64,000 nt of DNA from Bacillaceae bacterium. GTDB lineage: Bacteria > Bacillota > Bacilli > JACDOE01. Both the position numbers and the translations under genes were made by a program. This document shows, piece after piece, positions 4,455 to 50,602 of the stretch. Every line of letters starts with the position of its first letter. The first letter of the stretch is position 1. Location of the stretch: NCBI GenBank assembly GCA_017656255.1, contig JACDOE010000001.1:62001-126000 (forward strand), given 5' to 3'. A model generated the notes under the pieces. It searched no databases. It was not told the DNA's origin and saw only the letters and a program-made list of their open reading frames with translations.

Positions 4455-5579
4455 ATGTTAATGGATAGGCCCATTAAGGTAGTTCATATAATCGGGGGCG
4501 GTGAGTACGGGGGAGCGGAAAATCATATTATCCAGTTGATCTCGTCTTTTTCTCCGCAGGTGGAGGCTTCCGTCATCTGTTTCTATGAATCTGCCTTCAG
4601 TGAAGCGCTCCGTAAAAAACAGATCCATGTTGAGGTGCTGGATTATCCCCGTTTTGACCCCCGGATCGCAATCGGACTGGGCCGCGTCCTGGACCAAATG
4701 GGGCCTGATATTCTTCACACCCACGGCGTAAAAGCCAATTTTTTCGGCCGGCTGCTGGCGCGTCGCCGTCATATCAAAGTGGTGACAACGGTTCACAGCC
4801 ATTTGAAACATGATTACGATCGTCTGCCGATTAAGCTGTTAACCTATCTGATGGAATACAGTACACGGCGATTTTCCGATCATTTTATCTGTGTGTCAAA
4901 AGCGATCGGGGAGGATGTGGTCCGTTCCGGTGTTTCAAAGGATAAGGTATCGATTGTCCCGAACGGGATCGAAATGGAACGGTTTCAGGCGTTGACGGAC
5001 CGGACACTTATCAAGCAGGAACTGGGGCTGTCTCCCGATGCCTTCGTGGTGGGCGCTGTGGCCCGTCTTCGCCCCGTCAAGGGCGTTCACCTGCTAATTG
5101 AGGCGGCGGCTCAACTGGTCCGCGATCGGGATGACGTACACGTGGTCATCATCGGTGACGGACCTGAGCGTCCGGAACTGGAACGGCGTGTCAGGGAGCA
5201 GGGCATCGCGGATCACGTGCATTTTCTCGGGTTTCAGCAGCAGATTGAACGTTATATGTACAGTCTGGACTGTTTTGTTAATGCGTCGCTGTCGGAAGGG
5301 CTTCCCCTGGCTGTTCTGGAAGCGATGGCGTGCCGGGTACCGGTTGTGGCCACGTCGGTGGGAGCGGTACCGGAGATGATCGAGCATGAACGTGACGGTA
5401 TCTTGATCGAAAAAAATTCGGTTGAGGCGATTGTGGAAGGTGTCCGTCGGGTGTTGGACGATCCTGCTTTACGCTCGTCAATGGTAGAGAGGGCATATAA
5501 GAAGGTGCTCAACCATTTTACGACTGAAGTGATGGCGCAGCAAAACCAGCACGTGTATCATAGGTTGATGGAGGACTGA
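4455..5579 (+). CDS. Glycosyltransferase, GT4-type
   Basis: A 374-residue GT-B glycosyltransferase. The N-terminus reads VVHIIGGGEYGGAENH (the glycine-rich loop of family GT4), HTHGVKANFFGRLLA follows, and the C-terminal half carries the signature EGLPLAVLEAMA with two catalytic glutamates spaced E(x7)E. It probably acts on the same lipid-linked polymer as its neighbours. TAGGAG precedes the start; ATG 4455 and ATG 4461 are both possible (4 versus 10 bases spacing). It is followed after 5 bases by the flippase gene. Confidence 0.85.
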   Translation: MLMDRPIKVVHIIGGGEYGGAENHIIQLISSFSPQVEASVICFYESAFSEALRKKQIHVEVLDYPRFDPRIAIGLGRVLDQMGPDILHTHGVKANFFGRLLARRRHIKVVTTVHSHLKHDYDRLPIKLLTYLMEYSTRRFSDHFICVSKAIGEDVVRSGVSKDKVSIVPNGIEMERFQALTDRTLIKQELGLSPDAFVVGAVARLRPVKGVHLLIEAAAQLVRDRDDVHVVIIGDGPERPELERRVREQGIADHVHFLGFQQQIERYMYSLDCFVNASLSEGLPLAVLEAMACRVPVVATSVGAVPEMIEHERDGILIEKNSVEAIVEGVRRVLDDPALRSSMVERAYKKVLNHFTTEVMAQQNQHVYHRLMED

Positions 5580-5584
5580 AGAAC

Positions 5585-7150
5585 TTGTTGATACGTTCTG
5601 CTTTTATCATCGTAGCCGTTACCATGGTGGGACGGCTGCTTGGTTTTATAAGAGGGATTTTTATATCACAGGAATTCGGAGTAGGGGCCGAGACGGATGC
5701 CTTTTTTATGGCCTTTGTCATTCCTATGACCCTTCTGATGATTCTGCCGGGAGCGATCAATTCTGTGTTTATTCCCGCGTTGAACCGGGCGCGCACACTG
5801 GAGGAAGGCAGCGAACGGGTCTTGTTTGAAAAGGTGTTTACAATCACGTTTCTGGCGGGTGTTTTGGCCACGGCCCTGATGTATCTGCTGTCCTCTCCTC
5901 TGGTGAGTGTGCTGGCGCCGGGATTTGATCCGGTTAAAAAGGAATTGACACTGGAACTGCTGAAGTGGATGCTTCCTTCCGTTGTGTTAATTGCCCTGAC
6001 CGGTGTTTTTTCAAGTGTATTAAACGTCCATCACCAGTTTTTTTACCCCAGCCTGGGAACGGTGATCAACAGCAGTCTTGTAATTGCTTCCATCTTTTTA
6101 CTGGTGCCGTTCATGGGAATTCACGGGCTGGCACTGGGGACAAGCCTCGGGTTTGCCGGTTACGCCTTGATCATGGTGCCGTCCCTTCTCAAAAAAAAGT
6201 ACCGGTTTCGCATCCGCCGGGAGTGGCGTGGCGATCCGGTCCTGACCGGGATGGGGGAACGGTTTGTTCCGGTTATGATCGGTTCACTGGTCAGCCAGCT
6301 GGCCCTGTTCATTGAGCGAATCCTCGCTTCGGGACTGGGGGACGCCAGAGTTGCATCACTGGCCCTTGCCTACACCGTGATGCAATTGCCGATGGCCGTC
6401 TTCGTCGGCGCCTTTACCGTTCCGCTGTTTCCGCTACTCTCAGAACATGCCCAGCACAAACGGTATGATCAGATGAAGAAACTGCTGGAAAAAGGGGTCG
6501 CCTATCTCGTGCTGATAATGATCCCGATCATGGCCGGGTTGATTATGCTGAGTGAAGACATCATTCGCCTGCTATATGAGCGGGGAGAATTTGACGCAGA
6601 GGATACGCAGTTGACAGCATGGGCCCTAATGTTTTACAGCCTGGCTATTCTGGGCCTCGCACTCAGGGAAACCCTGACCCGGGCCTTCTATGCCCTTGAA
6701 GATACGAAAACGCCGGTGTTGACGGGGTTGGCCGGGATTGTATTCTATGTTGGAATCAGTCTTCTGCTCATGCCGCAACTGGATCACGGCGGTATTGCCC
6801 TGTCATTCAGTTTGGCCGCTTATTTATCAAGTTTTTTGCTGGCGTTCATACTCCGTAAAAAAACGGGCAGAGTACTGTCCGGTCATTTCTGGCTGACCCT
6901 GGTTAAAACCCTGGCAGCATCTGCTGTGATGGCACTGGTGCTGGGATGGATTCACGGATTTCCCGGGGAATATCAGGATGCGGGATGGATGGCCGGCTGG
7001 CCTTCCGTGATTAAGGTGTCATTGTTGATTGTACTCGGGGCGCTGGTCTATGGAGGCGTTCTCCTTATTTTGAAAGAGAAGCTGTTATGGGAAATGATCG
7101 GCCGGTTGTTTCATAGAATCACAGGAAAAAAAGAAAAGGATGTTTCATAA
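5585..7150 (+). CDS. murJ: MurJ/MviN-family lipid flippase
   Basis: A 521-residue protein of the MOP flippase superfamily with about 14 transmembrane helices. The opening GRLLGFIRGIFISQEFG and the stretch ETDAFFMAFVIP are characteristic of MurJ (MviN), which moves lipid II or related polyprenyl-linked sugars across the membrane. TTG 5585 is the start; GGAGG lies about 10 bases upstream inside the end of the preceding gene. Its place inside a glycan cluster next to csaB raises the possibility that it flips the precursor of a secondary cell-wall polymer rather than lipid II; the genome may hold another MurJ or Amj. Basis for the substrate: inference. Confidence 0.88.
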   Translation: MLIRSAFIIVAVTMVGRLLGFIRGIFISQEFGVGAETDAFFMAFVIPMTLLMILPGAINSVFIPALNRARTLEEGSERVLFEKVFTITFLAGVLATALMYLLSSPLVSVLAPGFDPVKKELTLELLKWMLPSVVLIALTGVFSSVLNVHHQFFYPSLGTVINSSLVIASIFLLVPFMGIHGLALGTSLGFAGYALIMVPSLLKKKYRFRIRREWRGDPVLTGMGERFVPVMIGSLVSQLALFIERILASGLGDARVASLALAYTVMQLPMAVFVGAFTVPLFPLLSEHAQHKRYDQMKKLLEKGVAYLVLIMIPIMAGLIMLSEDIIRLLYERGEFDAEDTQLTAWALMFYSLAILGLALRETLTRAFYALEDTKTPVLTGLAGIVFYVGISLLLMPQLDHGGIALSFSLAAYLSSFLLAFILRKKTGRVLSGHFWLTLVKTLAASAVMALVLGWIHGFPGEYQDAGWMAGWPSVIKVSLLIVLGALVYGGVLLILKEKLLWEMIGRLFHRITGKKEKDVS

Positions 7151-7696: not shown

Positions 7697-8809
7697 TCAA
7701 GACTTCAACAGGTCTCTGGCCAGGATACTTCCTCTTTCCGCTTCCCGGATCAAATTCGACATATTTTGATTAAGTTTATGCTGAAGGCCCGGGAGATCCT
7801 GAAGCGATTGTTGCACCCGTTCGGAAAGCTGTTGATAGCTCAGGTCCCGTATGTTTCCCGCTGACGTCATCCCGATCCGCTCCACAAAACGTTCCACTTT
7901 CGGATCATAGGAGAGGGCGACGAAGGGCACCCCGGTCACCGCGGACAAAATGACGGAATGGAGCCGCATCCCCAGCACAAAGTCCATGTTTTCAATCACA
8001 CTGATAATGTCACGGAAATCCATTTTTTGATCCAGTAAAAAGACGCGATGTGGCTTGTCCCGATGGTTCATATGTTTGATAATTTCACGAGATTCGGCAA
8101 TATCTGCCGGATACTGCATGGGAATCAGGTAAATGTTCCAGCCCTGATCAATCATGTCATCCGCCAGTCTGGCCAGTTCCCGGCGGTATCGGGTTTCGTT
8201 CTTCCATTTCCGAACGGATATCGCCATTTTGGGTGAAGCCGAATCGGCAGGCGTGTACTGGTCCAAAATCCGCTGTCCCCGTTCCGGTCCGATTTCTTCG
8301 GGGTTGATGGTGATAGCCGGGTCGGCCGTCACGTGGATCGGTGCCTGGGTCACGCCCAGGTCCTTTAAGTCCTGGCCGGATTGTTCATCTCGAACAGTGA
8401 TAACATCGACCCGATTGACAATTAACCGGATCAATTTTTTGCTTAACGGATGAGAAATGGGGCCCACACCCTGGGCATAAAAGATGACGGGTTTTGTCAG
8501 CATTTTGGCAATCGTTACAATTCCGAGGTAATAGATGACACTGCGGGGACTGGTCGCATCCTGGAGCAGACTTCCTCCGCCCATAACCAGCAGGTCGCAG
8601 TGCTTCACCCGGGTAATGATTTCGGTGGGTTTCCAGCGATTATAAGCGGGAATACCGAAACGTTTTCGGGTTTCATCCGGTTTGTTGGATAAAACGGATA
8701 TTTCTACCCGGTCAAGGTGCCGTTTTAAAGACGAAATGATGCCGTAGAGAACCGCATCGTCTCCGGCATTGTCAAATCCGTAATATCCTGAAATGAGAAC
8801 CCTGGCCAT
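7697..8809 (-). CDS. csaB: Polysaccharide pyruvyl transferase CsaB
   Basis: A 370-residue member of the PS_pyruv_trans family. The N-terminus MARVLISGYYGFDNAGDDA and the central RLHSVILSAVTGVPFVALSYDPKV (conserved RxH motif) match CsaB, which adds ketal pyruvate from phosphoenolpyruvate to the secondary cell-wall polymer. Pyruvylated polymer is the anchor for proteins with SLH domains, so the species probably has an S-layer or SLH proteins. No SLH protein lies in this window. A TATACT box lies about 70 bases upstream on this strand. The gene is convergent with the rest of the glycan cluster and transcribed away from the CAP protein gene. Confidence 0.9.
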   Translation of the reverse strand: MARVLISGYYGFDNAGDDAVLYGIISSLKRHLDRVEISVLSNKPDETRKRFGIPAYNRWKPTEIITRVKHCDLLVMGGGSLLQDATSPRSVIYYLGIVTIAKMLTKPVIFYAQGVGPISHPLSKKLIRLIVNRVDVITVRDEQSGQDLKDLGVTQAPIHVTADPAITINPEEIGPERGQRILDQYTPADSASPKMAISVRKWKNETRYRRELARLADDMIDQGWNIYLIPMQYPADIAESREIIKHMNHRDKPHRVFLLDQKMDFRDIISVIENMDFVLGMRLHSVILSAVTGVPFVALSYDPKVERFVERIGMTSAGNIRDLSYQQLSERVQQSLQDLPGLQHKLNQNMSNLIREAERGSILARDLLKS

Positions 8810-12890: not shown

Positions 12891-12924
12891 GGAGGTGTAA
12901 TCCTAACAGTCAGGTTAGGAAATG
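12891..12924 (+). promoter_or_regulatory. Strong Shine-Dalgarno separated from ATG by a hairpin
   Basis: GGAGGTG at 12891-12897 is 24 bases from ATG 12922, too far for direct use. Between them TCCTAAC (12901-12907) and GTTAGGA (12914-12920) form a 7-bp hairpin with a 6-base loop. Folding leaves four unpaired bases between the Shine-Dalgarno and the start. Alternatively a TTG at 12928 could be used with AGGA of the 3' arm. Confidence 0.5.
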
Positions 12925-14250
12925 CCATTGGACACATTTATAATTGTTACACTGAACATAATTTTGGTCTTATTTCTGGTTTTTTTAAACGGATTCTTCG
13001 TCGCTGCCGAGTTTGCCATGGTTAAGGTTCGGGAAACCCGGGTGACCCAGCTGGCGGAAGAAGGAAACCGCAAAGCCGCCGTTGCCAGGCGAATTGTCCA
13101 CAACCTGGATGCCTATTTGTCCGCCTGCCAGCTCGGCATTACACTGGCTTCACTGGGTCTCGGGTGGGTCGGTGAACCGGCCATCGCGGAATTGATCACG
13201 CCGCTTCTGGCCCGATTTGATATTCCTGAGGCCGGTATTCATACCATTGCCTTTGTCATCGCCTTTTCAATCATTACTTTTTTACATATCGTACTGGGAG
13301 AACTGGCTCCCAAATCACTGGCAATCCAGAGAGCGGAAGGCGTCAGCCTGTGGACGGCCGGTCCCCTTAACCTTTTTTACAAAGTGATGTATCCGTTTAT
13401 TCAGGGGCTCAACTGGACGGCCAATCGGTTGTTGAAGATGCTGGGCATCGAGCTGGTGGACAGTCATGAATCGGCCCACACCGAAGATGAAATCCGTATC
13501 TTGATGAACCAGAGTCATCAGAAGGGTTACATTGATAAAACGGAACTGACGCTGGTGGACAACATTTTTGATTTTACGGAAACCCTGGTGCGGGAAATCA
13601 TGATTCCCCGGACGGATATGCAGGTGCTCAACATCCAGTCTTCTTTTGAAGAAAACCTGGATTTAGCCCGCAAAAGCCACCATACGCGGTACCCGGTGGT
13701 GGACGGGGATAAGGACCATATCATTGGGCTGGTTCACATCAAGGATCTTTATGTCGAAGCGTTAAAAACGGAAGGCAAAAAGCTGGAATCGATCATCAGG
13801 CCGGTGATTACGGTGCCGGAATCGATGTCCATCAGTAAGCTGTTGCGCCGGATGCAGAAAGACCGGGAGCAGATGGCGATCGCCATTGATGAATTCGGGG
13901 GGACGGCCGGTCTGGTGACCGTTGAAGACATCCTGGAAGAGATCGTCGGGGAAATCCAGGATGAATTTGATAATGAACGCCCGATTATTGAAAAAAGGGA
14001 AAATGCCTTCTCCATTGACGGTCGCATGCTTCTGGAAGAGGTCAATGAGCATTTTGGTACCGATCTGCATTCTGAAGAAGTGGATACCATTGCCGGATGG
14101 GTCTATAATGAACTGGGTCGTACCCCGAAGGTGGGGGACAAAGTGCCCTACGGTTTCATCGAATTTGAAATCGAGGATACGGATCATTTGCGGATCACCC
14201 GTCTTTTGTTGAGAAAAAAGGGGACTGAAACGAACAAAGAAACGAAATAA
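12922..14250 (+). CDS. CNNM/CorC-type hemolysin-family protein
   Basis: A 442-residue membrane protein. Residues 1-200 form a CNNM (DUF21) transmembrane domain (NGFFVAAEFAMVKVRETRV, LGLGWVGEPAI, LGELAPKSLA). A CBS pair follows at about 215-340 (REIMIPRTDMQVL and later IDEFGGTAGLVTVEDILEEIVGEI), and a CorC_HlyC domain at about 350-430. Relatives (YhdP, YugS and MpfA) take part in magnesium export or homeostasis; the name hemolysin is historical. Transport of magnesium is inferred from family. The gene lies alone between two terminators. Confidence 0.9.
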   Translation: MPLDTFIIVTLNIILVLFLVFLNGFFVAAEFAMVKVRETRVTQLAEEGNRKAAVARRIVHNLDAYLSACQLGITLASLGLGWVGEPAIAELITPLLARFDIPEAGIHTIAFVIAFSIITFLHIVLGELAPKSLAIQRAEGVSLWTAGPLNLFYKVMYPFIQGLNWTANRLLKMLGIELVDSHESAHTEDEIRILMNQSHQKGYIDKTELTLVDNIFDFTETLVREIMIPRTDMQVLNIQSSFEENLDLARKSHHTRYPVVDGDKDHIIGLVHIKDLYVEALKTEGKKLESIIRPVITVPESMSISKLLRRMQKDREQMAIAIDEFGGTAGLVTVEDILEEIVGEIQDEFDNERPIIEKRENAFSIDGRMLLEEVNEHFGTDLHSEEVDTIAGWVYNELGRTPKVGDKVPYGFIEFEIEDTDHLRITRLLLRKKGTETNKETK

Positions 14251-46711: not shown

Positions 46712-46979
46712 AAATCAGGAGAAAAAAGAACTTCAGGAACTGGAGTCTGAAGAAATGTCGCTTGAGGAAGCATTGTCCCGCCTGGAGGAAGTTGTCGAAA
46801 AACTGGAACAGGAAGATATACCGCTTGAAGAAGCCATCGAGCTTTTTCAGGAAGGGATGAGGCTGTCCAAATTATCGGGTGACAAATTGGACAGGGTGGA
46901 ACAGAAAGTTAATATGCTAATTGAAGAAGAAGGAAAATTGGTCACCCGTCCTTTTGAAATAAAGGAGGACGACGCGTGA
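46692..46979 (+). CDS. xseB: Exodeoxyribonuclease VII small subunit
   Basis: A 95-residue helical protein with SLEEALSRLEEVVEKLEQEDIPLEEAIELFQEGM, the XseB core. An extra acidic N-terminal tail of about 20 residues makes it longer than the usual 75-85. GGGGG precedes ATG 46692; the stop overlaps the ispA start (GTGA). Confidence 0.93.
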   Translation: MSQEANKNQEKKELQELESEEMSLEEALSRLEEVVEKLEQEDIPLEEAIELFQEGMRLSKLSGDKLDRVEQKVNMLIEEEGKLVTRPFEIKEDDA

Positions 46980-47872
46980 TCGGAAACATTGACTTGCGAC
47001 AGTACTTACAAGAAAAGGCTGCTCAGGTAGAAAAAGGGTTTAAAACCTATCTCACGGACGAGGATGTCCCGGAACCGTTGCGCGAATCGGTTCGATATTC
47101 CCTTTTTGCAGGAGGAAAAAGGTTGCGTCCGGTACTGCTCCTGGCGACAATGGAAGCTTTAAACGGGAACAGTGACAGCGGATTACCTGCAGCCTGTGCG
47201 GTTGAAATGATTCATACTTACTCCTTGATCCATGATGATCTGCCGGCCATGGATGATGACGATTATCGAAGGGGAAAACCGTCCAACCATAAAGTATTTG
47301 GTGATGCGATGGCGATTCTGGCCGGGGATGCCCTCCTGACCCACGCGTTTGAGACAATCAGCCATCTTGTAGATACGGGACACGATGCCGACAAAGTGGT
47401 CCGACTGACCCGGGAACTGGCGCATTTCGCAGGGATTCGGGGGATGGTAGGCGGACAGGCGGCGGATCTTCTAGGTGAAAATCAGCAGCTTACCCTTGAA
47501 GAATTGCAATATATCCATCAACACAAGACAGCAGACATGATCGTATTTTGTGTGAGAGCAGGTGCGATACTGGCGGATGCTTCTCCATCCCAAATCAACG
47601 CCCTGACGCGTTATGGCCGTCATATCGGCCTGGCTTTTCAAATCCAGGATGATATCCTGGATGTGATCGGAGACGAACAAAAACTGGGGAAAGCGGTAGG
47701 CAGTGATGAGGCAAAAAATAAATCCACCTACCCCGCGCTGATCGGACTTGATTCTTCCCGGCAAAAACTGAACGACATGATCAAAGATGCCAAACAGGCA
47801 CTGGCGGAAGCCGGTGTGGAAAAAACGGTACTGGCACAGATCGCCGATTTCGTGATATCCCGGGACCAATAA
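46976..47872 (+). CDS. ispA: Polyprenyl (farnesyl/geranylgeranyl) diphosphate synthase
   Basis: A 298-residue trans-prenyltransferase. First aspartate-rich motif DDLPAMDDDD (about residue 84) and second motif QIQDDILDVIGD (about 222), with GGKRLRP and GGQAADLL. It joins IPP units to make farnesyl or geranylgeranyl diphosphate. GTG 46976 follows AAGGAGG. Together with dxs downstream it frames the OLE RNA. Confidence 0.95.
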   Translation: MIGNIDLRQYLQEKAAQVEKGFKTYLTDEDVPEPLRESVRYSLFAGGKRLRPVLLLATMEALNGNSDSGLPAACAVEMIHTYSLIHDDLPAMDDDDYRRGKPSNHKVFGDAMAILAGDALLTHAFETISHLVDTGHDADKVVRLTRELAHFAGIRGMVGGQAADLLGENQQLTLEELQYIHQHKTADMIVFCVRAGAILADASPSQINALTRYGRHIGLAFQIQDDILDVIGDEQKLGKAVGSDEAKNKSTYPALIGLDSSRQKLNDMIKDAKQALAEAGVEKTVLAQIADFVISRDQ

Positions 47873-47901
47873 TTGTTCCGAATTCAGCAATATGGTATAA
47901 T
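47873..47901 (+). promoter_or_regulatory. SigA-type promoter of the OLE RNA
   Basis: TTGTTC (47873-47878) and TATAAT (47896-47901) with a 17-base spacer, beginning right after the ispA stop. The predicted start (about 47908) lies next to the 5' strand of the OLE closing helix. Confidence 0.8.
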
Positions 47902-47907
47902 AACATT

Positions 47908-48530
47908 AAAGTGAAGAGTGGTGCAGTATTCTAGTCAACCTACCTTTTCTGAAGGCGGGGCTAAAAATCCGCTAAAGGGCACATCGATGAAGTCCCTGGT
48001 GCAGGCTTACGACGCCCAGTTGTGGGTCTGTGCTGGGGGTTAAGGTAGCAGGGCGATCCACAAAGGCATGTGGGCGTAGACCCTGCTTCCGCGGAGGCCC
48101 AAGTTCGTGGCGTTTTGTTAACATGCAAAATGTTACGGCTTGGGGTATGAACCTATATGCGAGCTGCCACGCTTGTGTATAGCGTAGCCTGCCTTGAGTG
48201 GTGGAGAGGGGATTATAGGAATCAGGAGTCATGCACTCTTTGGCCAAAAGTACATGATTCCGGTGCTATATGAAATCTTCACTGCAAAAGAGGCTAGGAA
48301 AAGGTTAAAGGTTGTTGAGGAAAACTCCTAGACTGCTCGCTCGTAGGCGTACCTTTATGGGGATTATAGTGTGGTCTAAGTGGTGATCCAGTTCGGCGTA
48401 CGGTGACGGCGTCGAGAAGGGCCTAAGGGGAAACCGCCGGAACGGCGACGTTCGGGTGCTCTTCTGGGAAAACCTACTGGACCTTAAGCCACAATGTTTA
48501 CTCATAAAGGATCCACTCTTCCGTTTATAT
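47908..48530 (+). ncRNA. ole: OLE RNA (ornate, large, extremophilic)
   Basis: A noncoding stretch of about 610 bases lies between ispA and dxs, the known setting of OLE RNA. The ends pair: GAAGAGTGG (47913-47921) is fully complementary to CCACTCTTC (48513-48521), closing a 609-base structure, which is the canonical length. It is GC-rich, with many G-rich segments and local inverted repeats, and no frame on either strand has a ribosome-binding site and family character. It has a promoter and a terminator of its own. OLE RNA binds the membrane protein OapA and L7Ae-like partners and helps Halalkalibacterium halodurans withstand cold, alcohol and magnesium stress. The usual neighbour oapA is absent here. 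Family call from location, size, ends and recalled sequence; no covariance search was run. Confidence 0.9.
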
Positions 48531-48537
48531 GTATGAT

Positions 48538-48563
48538 AAGCCGCTTTCAACAGCGGCTTTTTT
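48538..48563 (+). terminator. Rho-independent terminator of the OLE RNA
   Basis: AAGCCGCT / AGCGGCTT stem, TTCAAC loop, and six T overlapping the 3' arm. Confidence 0.92.
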
Positions 48564-48584
48564 ACTTGCCTTTTCACATATGGA

Positions 48585-48715: not shown

Positions 48716-50602
48716 TTGCGTCTGGCTGATATTGATTCTCCCGAGCAATTAAAAAAATTAAAAGTAAAAGATCTGGAAAAACTGGCTGAGGAAATCCGCC
48801 AGTTTATTATAGAAAAATTGTCCGTGACCGGAGGACACCTTGCGCCCAACCTGGGGGTTGTGGAATTAACACTGGCTCTCCATTACTGCTTTAACAGCCC
48901 GGAGGATAAATTTATCTGGGATGTCGGGCATCAATCCTATGTACACAAGATCCTGACCGGAAGACAGGATCAGTTTGATACCCTGCGACAGTACAAAGGT
49001 CTGAGCGGATTTCCCAAAATGTCCGAGAGCGAACATGATGTCTGGGAAACCGGGCACAGCAGCACATCCCTGTCCGCTGCCATGGGTATGGCTATCGCCA
49101 GGGATCTCAAGGGAGATACCAATAAAGTGGTCGCCATAATCGGGGATGGTGCCCTCACCGGTGGTATGGCCCTGGAAGCTTTAAACCACATCGGGCATGA
49201 ACAGAAAGATCTGATCGTGGTTCTCAATGATAATGAAATGTCCATTTCTCCTAACGTCGGTGCTCTGCACAACTATCTCGGGAAGCTGCGTACGGACCGG
49301 CATTACCGGAAAGCAAAAGACGAAATTGAACAACTTCTCTATAAAGTTCCCTCCGTCGGAGGTAAAGTGGCAAGAACGCTGGAAAAGATAAAGGATAGCA
49401 TGAAATACTTGCTGGTTTCCGGTGTTTTATTTGAAGAACTGGGCTATACTTACCTCGGTCCGATTGACGGGCACAATATCACAGAACTGCTGGAATCCTT
49501 CAAACAGGCGGCGCAAACGCGTGGCCCTGTGCTGGTCCACGTGGTGACGCAAAAAGGAAAAGGATACAAACCGGCTGAGCTCAATTCAGACACGTATCAC
49601 GGTGTCGGCGCGTACAAGATTGAATCAGGGGAACAGGTGAAAAAAGCGGGCCCTCCCGGTTACACTAAAATTTTTGCCAGTACCCTCATCCGACTGGCGA
49701 AGGATAATCCTAATATCGTCGCTGTTACTCCTGCTATGCTCGGAGGTTCGGGGTTAAACAAATTTATCGAAACTTATCCGGACCGTTGCTTTGATGTCGG
49801 TATAGCCGAGCAGCATGCCGTTACCATGTCGGGGGGACTGGCTGCTGAAGGGCTGAAACCGGTCTGTGCTATCTATTCTACTTTTCTGCAACGGGGATAT
49901 GACCAGGTCATCCATGATGTCTGCAGGCAAAACCTGAATGTCTTTTTTGCGGTAGACCGGGCCGGTCTGGTCGGGGCGGACGGGGAGACCCACCAGGGGG
50001 TATTTGATGTGGCATTTCTCCGCTGTGTTCCCAATATGGTCCTCATGATGCCCAAAGATGAAAATGAGTTTCAGCATATGATTTATACAGCGATTGAATA
50101 TCATGAAGGACCCATTGCGGTCCGTTATCCACGAGGAAACGGAATCGGCGTGGAGATGGACTCGGATCTCAAATTGCTTCCGATCGGTAAGTCGGAAGTG
50201 GTTCGGGAAGGGAAACACGTTGCTATTCTGGCACTGGGACCGATGGTTCAGGTCGCTGAAAAAGCAGCGGAACTGTTACTCAAAGAAGGTATACAGCCCA
50301 TGATTATCAACGCACGGTTCGTCAAACCGCTGGATGAAAAACTGCTAATGTCTCTGGCGGATCAGGATTATTCCATCATCACCCTTGAAGAAGCATCGGT
50401 GAAGGGCAGTATGGGAAGTGCCGTGCTGGAGTTTTATGCAGAAGCCGGCATTCATGACATTGTTGTTGAAAACATTGGTATTCCCGATTACTTCGTCGAG
50501 CACGGCAGTGTGGACGATCTTCGTGAAGAAGTGGGACTGACTCCGAATCGGGTCGCACAAAAGGTCATGTCCATGTGGCCGAGAAGAAGACAGAGGGCAT
50601 AA
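48716..50602 (+). CDS. dxs: 1-deoxy-D-xylulose-5-phosphate synthase
   Basis: A 628-residue thiamine-diphosphate enzyme, first step of the MEP isoprenoid pathway. ThDP motif [16 protein letters not shown]...NDNEMSIS, the conserved start [28 protein letters not shown], and the transketolase half with [19 protein letters not shown] 48716 follows GAGGAG. Confidence 0.96.

Follow-up and report, generated by a model that had tools for sequence, protein, structure and literature searches.

A complete OLE RNA gene between ispA and dxs

Within the 64,000-nucleotide stretch of a Bacillaceae bacterium genome that we analyzed (hereafter the window), the polyprenyl synthetase gene ispA (46976-47872, + strand; an ORF matching Pfam PF00348, E 2.6e-64) is separated from dxs (48716-50602, + strand; Pfam PF13292, E 7e-127) by an OLE RNA gene, which a sequence-only reading of this DNA had already placed between these two genes and called complete. 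The search with the Rfam OLE model that this reading suggested bears it out: cmscan matches RF01071 at 47902-48532 (+ strand; predicted 5′ end near 47908) over the whole model (1-616 of 616), with 537.6 bits (E 7e-155) against a gathering score of 50 bits. It is the sole RF01071 match in the whole genome, which was searched, and belongs to the full-length class of OLEs, with a score among the highest in our sample of Bacilli genomes. The window OLE is a complete and ordinary member of a known RNA family, with a promoter and a terminator also present, and the RNA itself, a large one that associates with the bacterial membrane, is common, scoring above the cut-off in 85 of 399 Bacilli genomes and in 284 of 398 genomes sampled across the phylum. 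One further Bacilli genome (G108:C1:9598-9671, − strand) has a partial OLE match of 22.9 bits, below the cut-off, together with no OapA match; this fragment may be a decayed OLE or a chance match.

The ends of the RNA are joined by a perfect 9-bp helix, lying where it had been described, in which GAAGAGTGG (47913-47921, + strand) and CCACTCTTC (48513-48521, + strand) form 9/9 pairs and close 609 bases. The helix is backed by covariation across OLEs: among 73 OLEs its outer five pairs are formed in 287 of 365 cells, whereas swapping partners between loci, repeated 2000 times, gave 201 on average and 228 at most. The inner four pairs served as anchors and were left out of this count, and the loci, like those compared for the promoter below, are related, such that the counts are not independent events.

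A conserved promoter and likely read-through from ispA

Directly behind the ispA stop codon begins a predicted ole promoter (47873-47901, + strand), with a −35 hexamer TTGTTC (47873-47878), a 17-base spacer, and an extended −10 element, TGGTATAAT, whose TATAAT lies at 47896-47901. These elements are present where the earlier reading had put them, although the distance to the helix is 11 bases; the 12 bases given there reach the first helix base. The −35 hexamer agrees with the consensus at only 3/6 bases, and because it is weak the promoter is not listed by a generic promoter scan of the sequence.

Comparison with other loci gives the promoter its weight. Of 59 (related) Bacilli loci, 54 have an exact TGnTATAAT in the 60 bases ahead of OLE, whereas dinucleotide shuffles would give 0.4; the box is mostly 14-20 bases before GUGG, and the −35 hexamer is often TTGAGC or TTGTTA. 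The extended −10 is kept also in loci with other spacing, and, judged by eye, most of the distant OLE loci in the phylum sample have the same box. A promoter of its own has been reported for H. halodurans ole (PMC9723947), and we rejected the notion that the promoter is peculiar to the window copy; being conserved across Bacilli loci and reported for H. halodurans, it is a normal part of ole genes. The comparison made here measures its conservation, which suggests that ole genes are as a rule transcribed separately.

The gap between ispA and ole is only ~40 bases and contains no terminator, and read-through into ole from upstream is therefore likely, in addition to initiation at its own promoter. 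The same short, terminator-free gap, and the report that the H. halodurans ole cluster is one polycistronic RNA (PMC12265935), would fit an alternative in which OLE is mostly cut from a long xseA-xseB-ispA transcript and the promoter- and terminator-like sequences play a minor part. We consider this unlikely, given an extended −10 that is retained in nearly all of the Bacilli loci, at differing spacings and in distant loci of the phylum, and given the promoter reported for H. halodurans ole itself.

The gene for OapA lies elsewhere

OapA is an essential protein partner of OLE. Its gene, oapA, is the one most often found next after ole (PMC12265935), and genomes with either OLE or OapA are described as almost always having the other (PMC11332333), yet the 150-base gap between ole and dxs in the window holds no oapA. 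There is no proper OapA family in Pfam or NCBIfam, for lack of which we built an alignment of 21 members. The possibility that the genome is missing OapA could be rejected: oapA is found at G000:C1:1005028-1005708 (− strand), ~895 kb from ole on one 1.2-Mb contig, and its product carries the DxxxD motif as DVVGD and agrees with the alignment at 17 of its 17 invariant columns.

The separation recurs in other genomes. OapA is present in 85/85 OLE-bearing Bacilli genomes, and inspection of coordinates places oapA directly behind ole in 78 of these and elsewhere in the other 7 (G000, G012, G033, G137, G148, G169, and G180; hereafter split, as opposed to linked), which come from four families; the window genome, G000, is the sole genome of its order in the sample. 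An assembly artifact could be imagined, the genome being a draft of 36 contigs, but it is so improbable as to be negligible: ole and oapA both lie deep within the same contig, and the split is repeated in six other genomes, five of which share the new oapA neighbors with G000.

The seven split OapAs group together in an OapA tree as a single clade (support 100/100), and they are ~30-40% identical to the linked OapAs. A tandem-CBS gene lies beside or near oapA in six of the seven split genomes, mostly together with YugN and FtsW genes; at locus L099, for example, oapA (5026-5709, − strand) is accompanied by a stand-alone tandem-CBS gene (8136-8591, − strand). In several linked genomes this CBS gene adjoins YugN or FtsW without oapA, and in G012 oapA is in a third context. 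The shared CBS neighbor and the single OapA clade point to one old relocation of oapA, and a single insertion at the CBS-YugN/FtsW block would explain the split, with a second move needed for G012. An IspA tree, which is poorly resolved, did not recover the split genomes as one clade.

The sequence-only reading had not noticed that this is a lineage with the RNA and its partner gene apart, and herein lies the added value of the comparison. We found no report of the split in the literature searched, which did not reach the original OLE publications from 2006-2012, and novelty is not established.

A predicted terminator after ole where oapA is gone

On the 3′ side of ole, hairpin scanning and folding identify a putative intrinsic terminator at 48538-48563 (+ strand), composed of a stem, AAGCCGCT-TTCAAC-AGCGGCTT (48538-48559), and a following T run. 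It had been predicted as a strong terminator 17 bases past the helix; it is there, with the distance being 16 bases, and the 46-nt stretch has a folding energy of −14.1 kcal/mol compared with a shuffle mean of −5.8 (z = −4.0).

Terminator-like hairpins are found within 150 bases after OLE in 7/7 split loci, and between OLE and oapA in 9 of 51 linked loci (Fisher p = 4e-5, a value that ignores relatedness and unequal gap lengths). The linked figure replaces an earlier 22/51 that took in hairpins inside oapA; in the replacement only hairpins between OLE and oapA were counted, under a less strict G-C threshold that also raised the split loci from 6 to 7/7. The pattern suggests that where oapA is adjacent, the polymerase usually meets no terminator ahead of it, and that where oapA has gone, ole is closed off.

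Promoter and terminator thus flank OLE, giving the sequence bounds of a stand-alone unit, and ole is predicted to be a transcription unit with its own start and end. The proposal that the window gene stands alone holds in so far as it has a conserved promoter and a terminator; it needs amending in that the promoter is not special, read-through from ispA is likely, and the absence of oapA had been missed. At the window locus, the terminator pattern backs stand-alone transcription better than the promoter does.

Two other observations concern the 3′ side of OLE genes. The hexamer TACATA, which is outside the Rfam OLE model, is found in 43 of 59 Bacilli loci no more than 60 bases past the closing helix, where shuffles would give 1.4, at 0-45 bases downstream of the 3′ helix strand (as in L137, L083, L084, and L115); it is rarer in distant OLE loci, absent from the Paenibacillus loci and from window positions 48522-48581, and is possibly a 3′ processing or binding element. 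Separately, in a Paenibacillaceae MAG (L013, 7325-7963) OLE runs directly into dxs, without an intervening oapA or terminator.

Partner proteins and magnesium exporters

In the known OLE particle, a membrane RNP, the RNA is joined by OapA, OapB, and OapC (PMC11332333), and the window genome codes for relatives of all three. An OapB homologue lies between map and infA and matches PDB 7k9b, 'OLE-associated protein B' (E 5e-29), and a YbxF/OapC homologue lies between rpoC and rpsL (E 4.5e-22). OapB and OapC are common but not universal companions of OLE, just as an adjacent oapA is usual but not obligatory.

With its partner gene no longer adjacent, the window OLE might be viewed as a decaying remnant outside any RNP, and defective OLE genes are mentioned in genomes without OapA (PMC11332333). 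This is highly improbable for an RNA scoring 537.6 bits, with a perfect closing helix, in a genome that has not only OapA with its conserved motif but OapB and OapC as well.

OapA is a distant CNNM-like protein, scoring 20.2 bits, below the CNNM cut-off of 28.4, and has no CBS or CorC_HlyC domain. Its separation from ole and its proximity to a tandem-CBS gene raise the idea that OapA and the neighboring CBS protein could together constitute a split MpfA relative that adds nucleotide sensing to the OLE particle. We regard this as quite improbable because the CBS gene, an old one with a wide distribution, is found elsewhere beside YugN/FtsW without oapA; the CBS neighborhood alone is weak evidence for an OapA-CBS partnership. 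The genome has a single full CNNM protein, a complete MpfA-type protein (CNNM, CBS, and CorC_HlyC) encoded in the window at 12922-14250 (+ strand), 34 kb from ole. An anticorrelation between MpfA and OLE has been reported (PMC11332333); here, one MpfA copy coexists with OLE despite this.

A probable working OLE particle from separate loci

We consider it very probable, as an explanation taken as a whole, that the window carries a functional full-length OLE gene with its own promoter and terminator, separate from a relocated oapA, and contributing to a working OLE RNP. In this explanation ole would be transcribed from its conserved extended −10 promoter, would probably also be reached by polymerases reading through from the xseA-xseB-ispA operon, and its transcription would end at the intrinsic terminator ahead of dxs, although some read-through may continue past ole. 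As in H. halodurans, a dimer of two OLE copies would bind OapA at the membrane in a particle that also includes OapB and OapC, and this particle would aid the cell under stress, such as cold, alcohol, Mg2+, or a poor carbon source. We propose a single relocation of oapA in a common ancestor, away from its place directly behind ole to one beside the tandem-CBS gene, so that the OLE RNA and its membrane partner would now come from separate transcription units. That the window OLE is transcribed, localized to the membrane, and functional is what we infer as most likely from sequence comparison.

The split lineage could help in working out what OLE does. With ole and oapA at separate loci, the stoichiometry of RNA and OapA would be free to vary independently, and the diverged OapA clade provides a natural experiment on which portions of OapA and OLE have to be compatible.

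Comparison with known systems

The window ole resembles that of H. halodurans (RF01071, full-length class) in matching the full model, in having its own promoter, in the presence of OapA, OapB, and OapC in the genome, and in its place among xseA, xseB, ispA, and dxs; it differs in that oapA does not come next, and a terminator and then dxs follow instead. It also resembles the OLEs of Ammoniphilus (G137 / L004) and its relatives G033, G148, and G169, as well as those of G180 and G012, with which it shares the split, the terminator after ole, and the OapA clade. In all of these except G012 oapA is beside the tandem-CBS gene, whereas in the window genome FAA hydrolase and Lar_N-type genes sit between the two. 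The MpfA / CorC-type Mg2+ exporters give a third comparison: OapA is remotely CNNM-like and the split oapA has a stand-alone tandem-CBS gene nearby, but OapA is without CBS or CorC_HlyC domains and falls below the CNNM cut-off, and the true MpfA of this genome is encoded separately.
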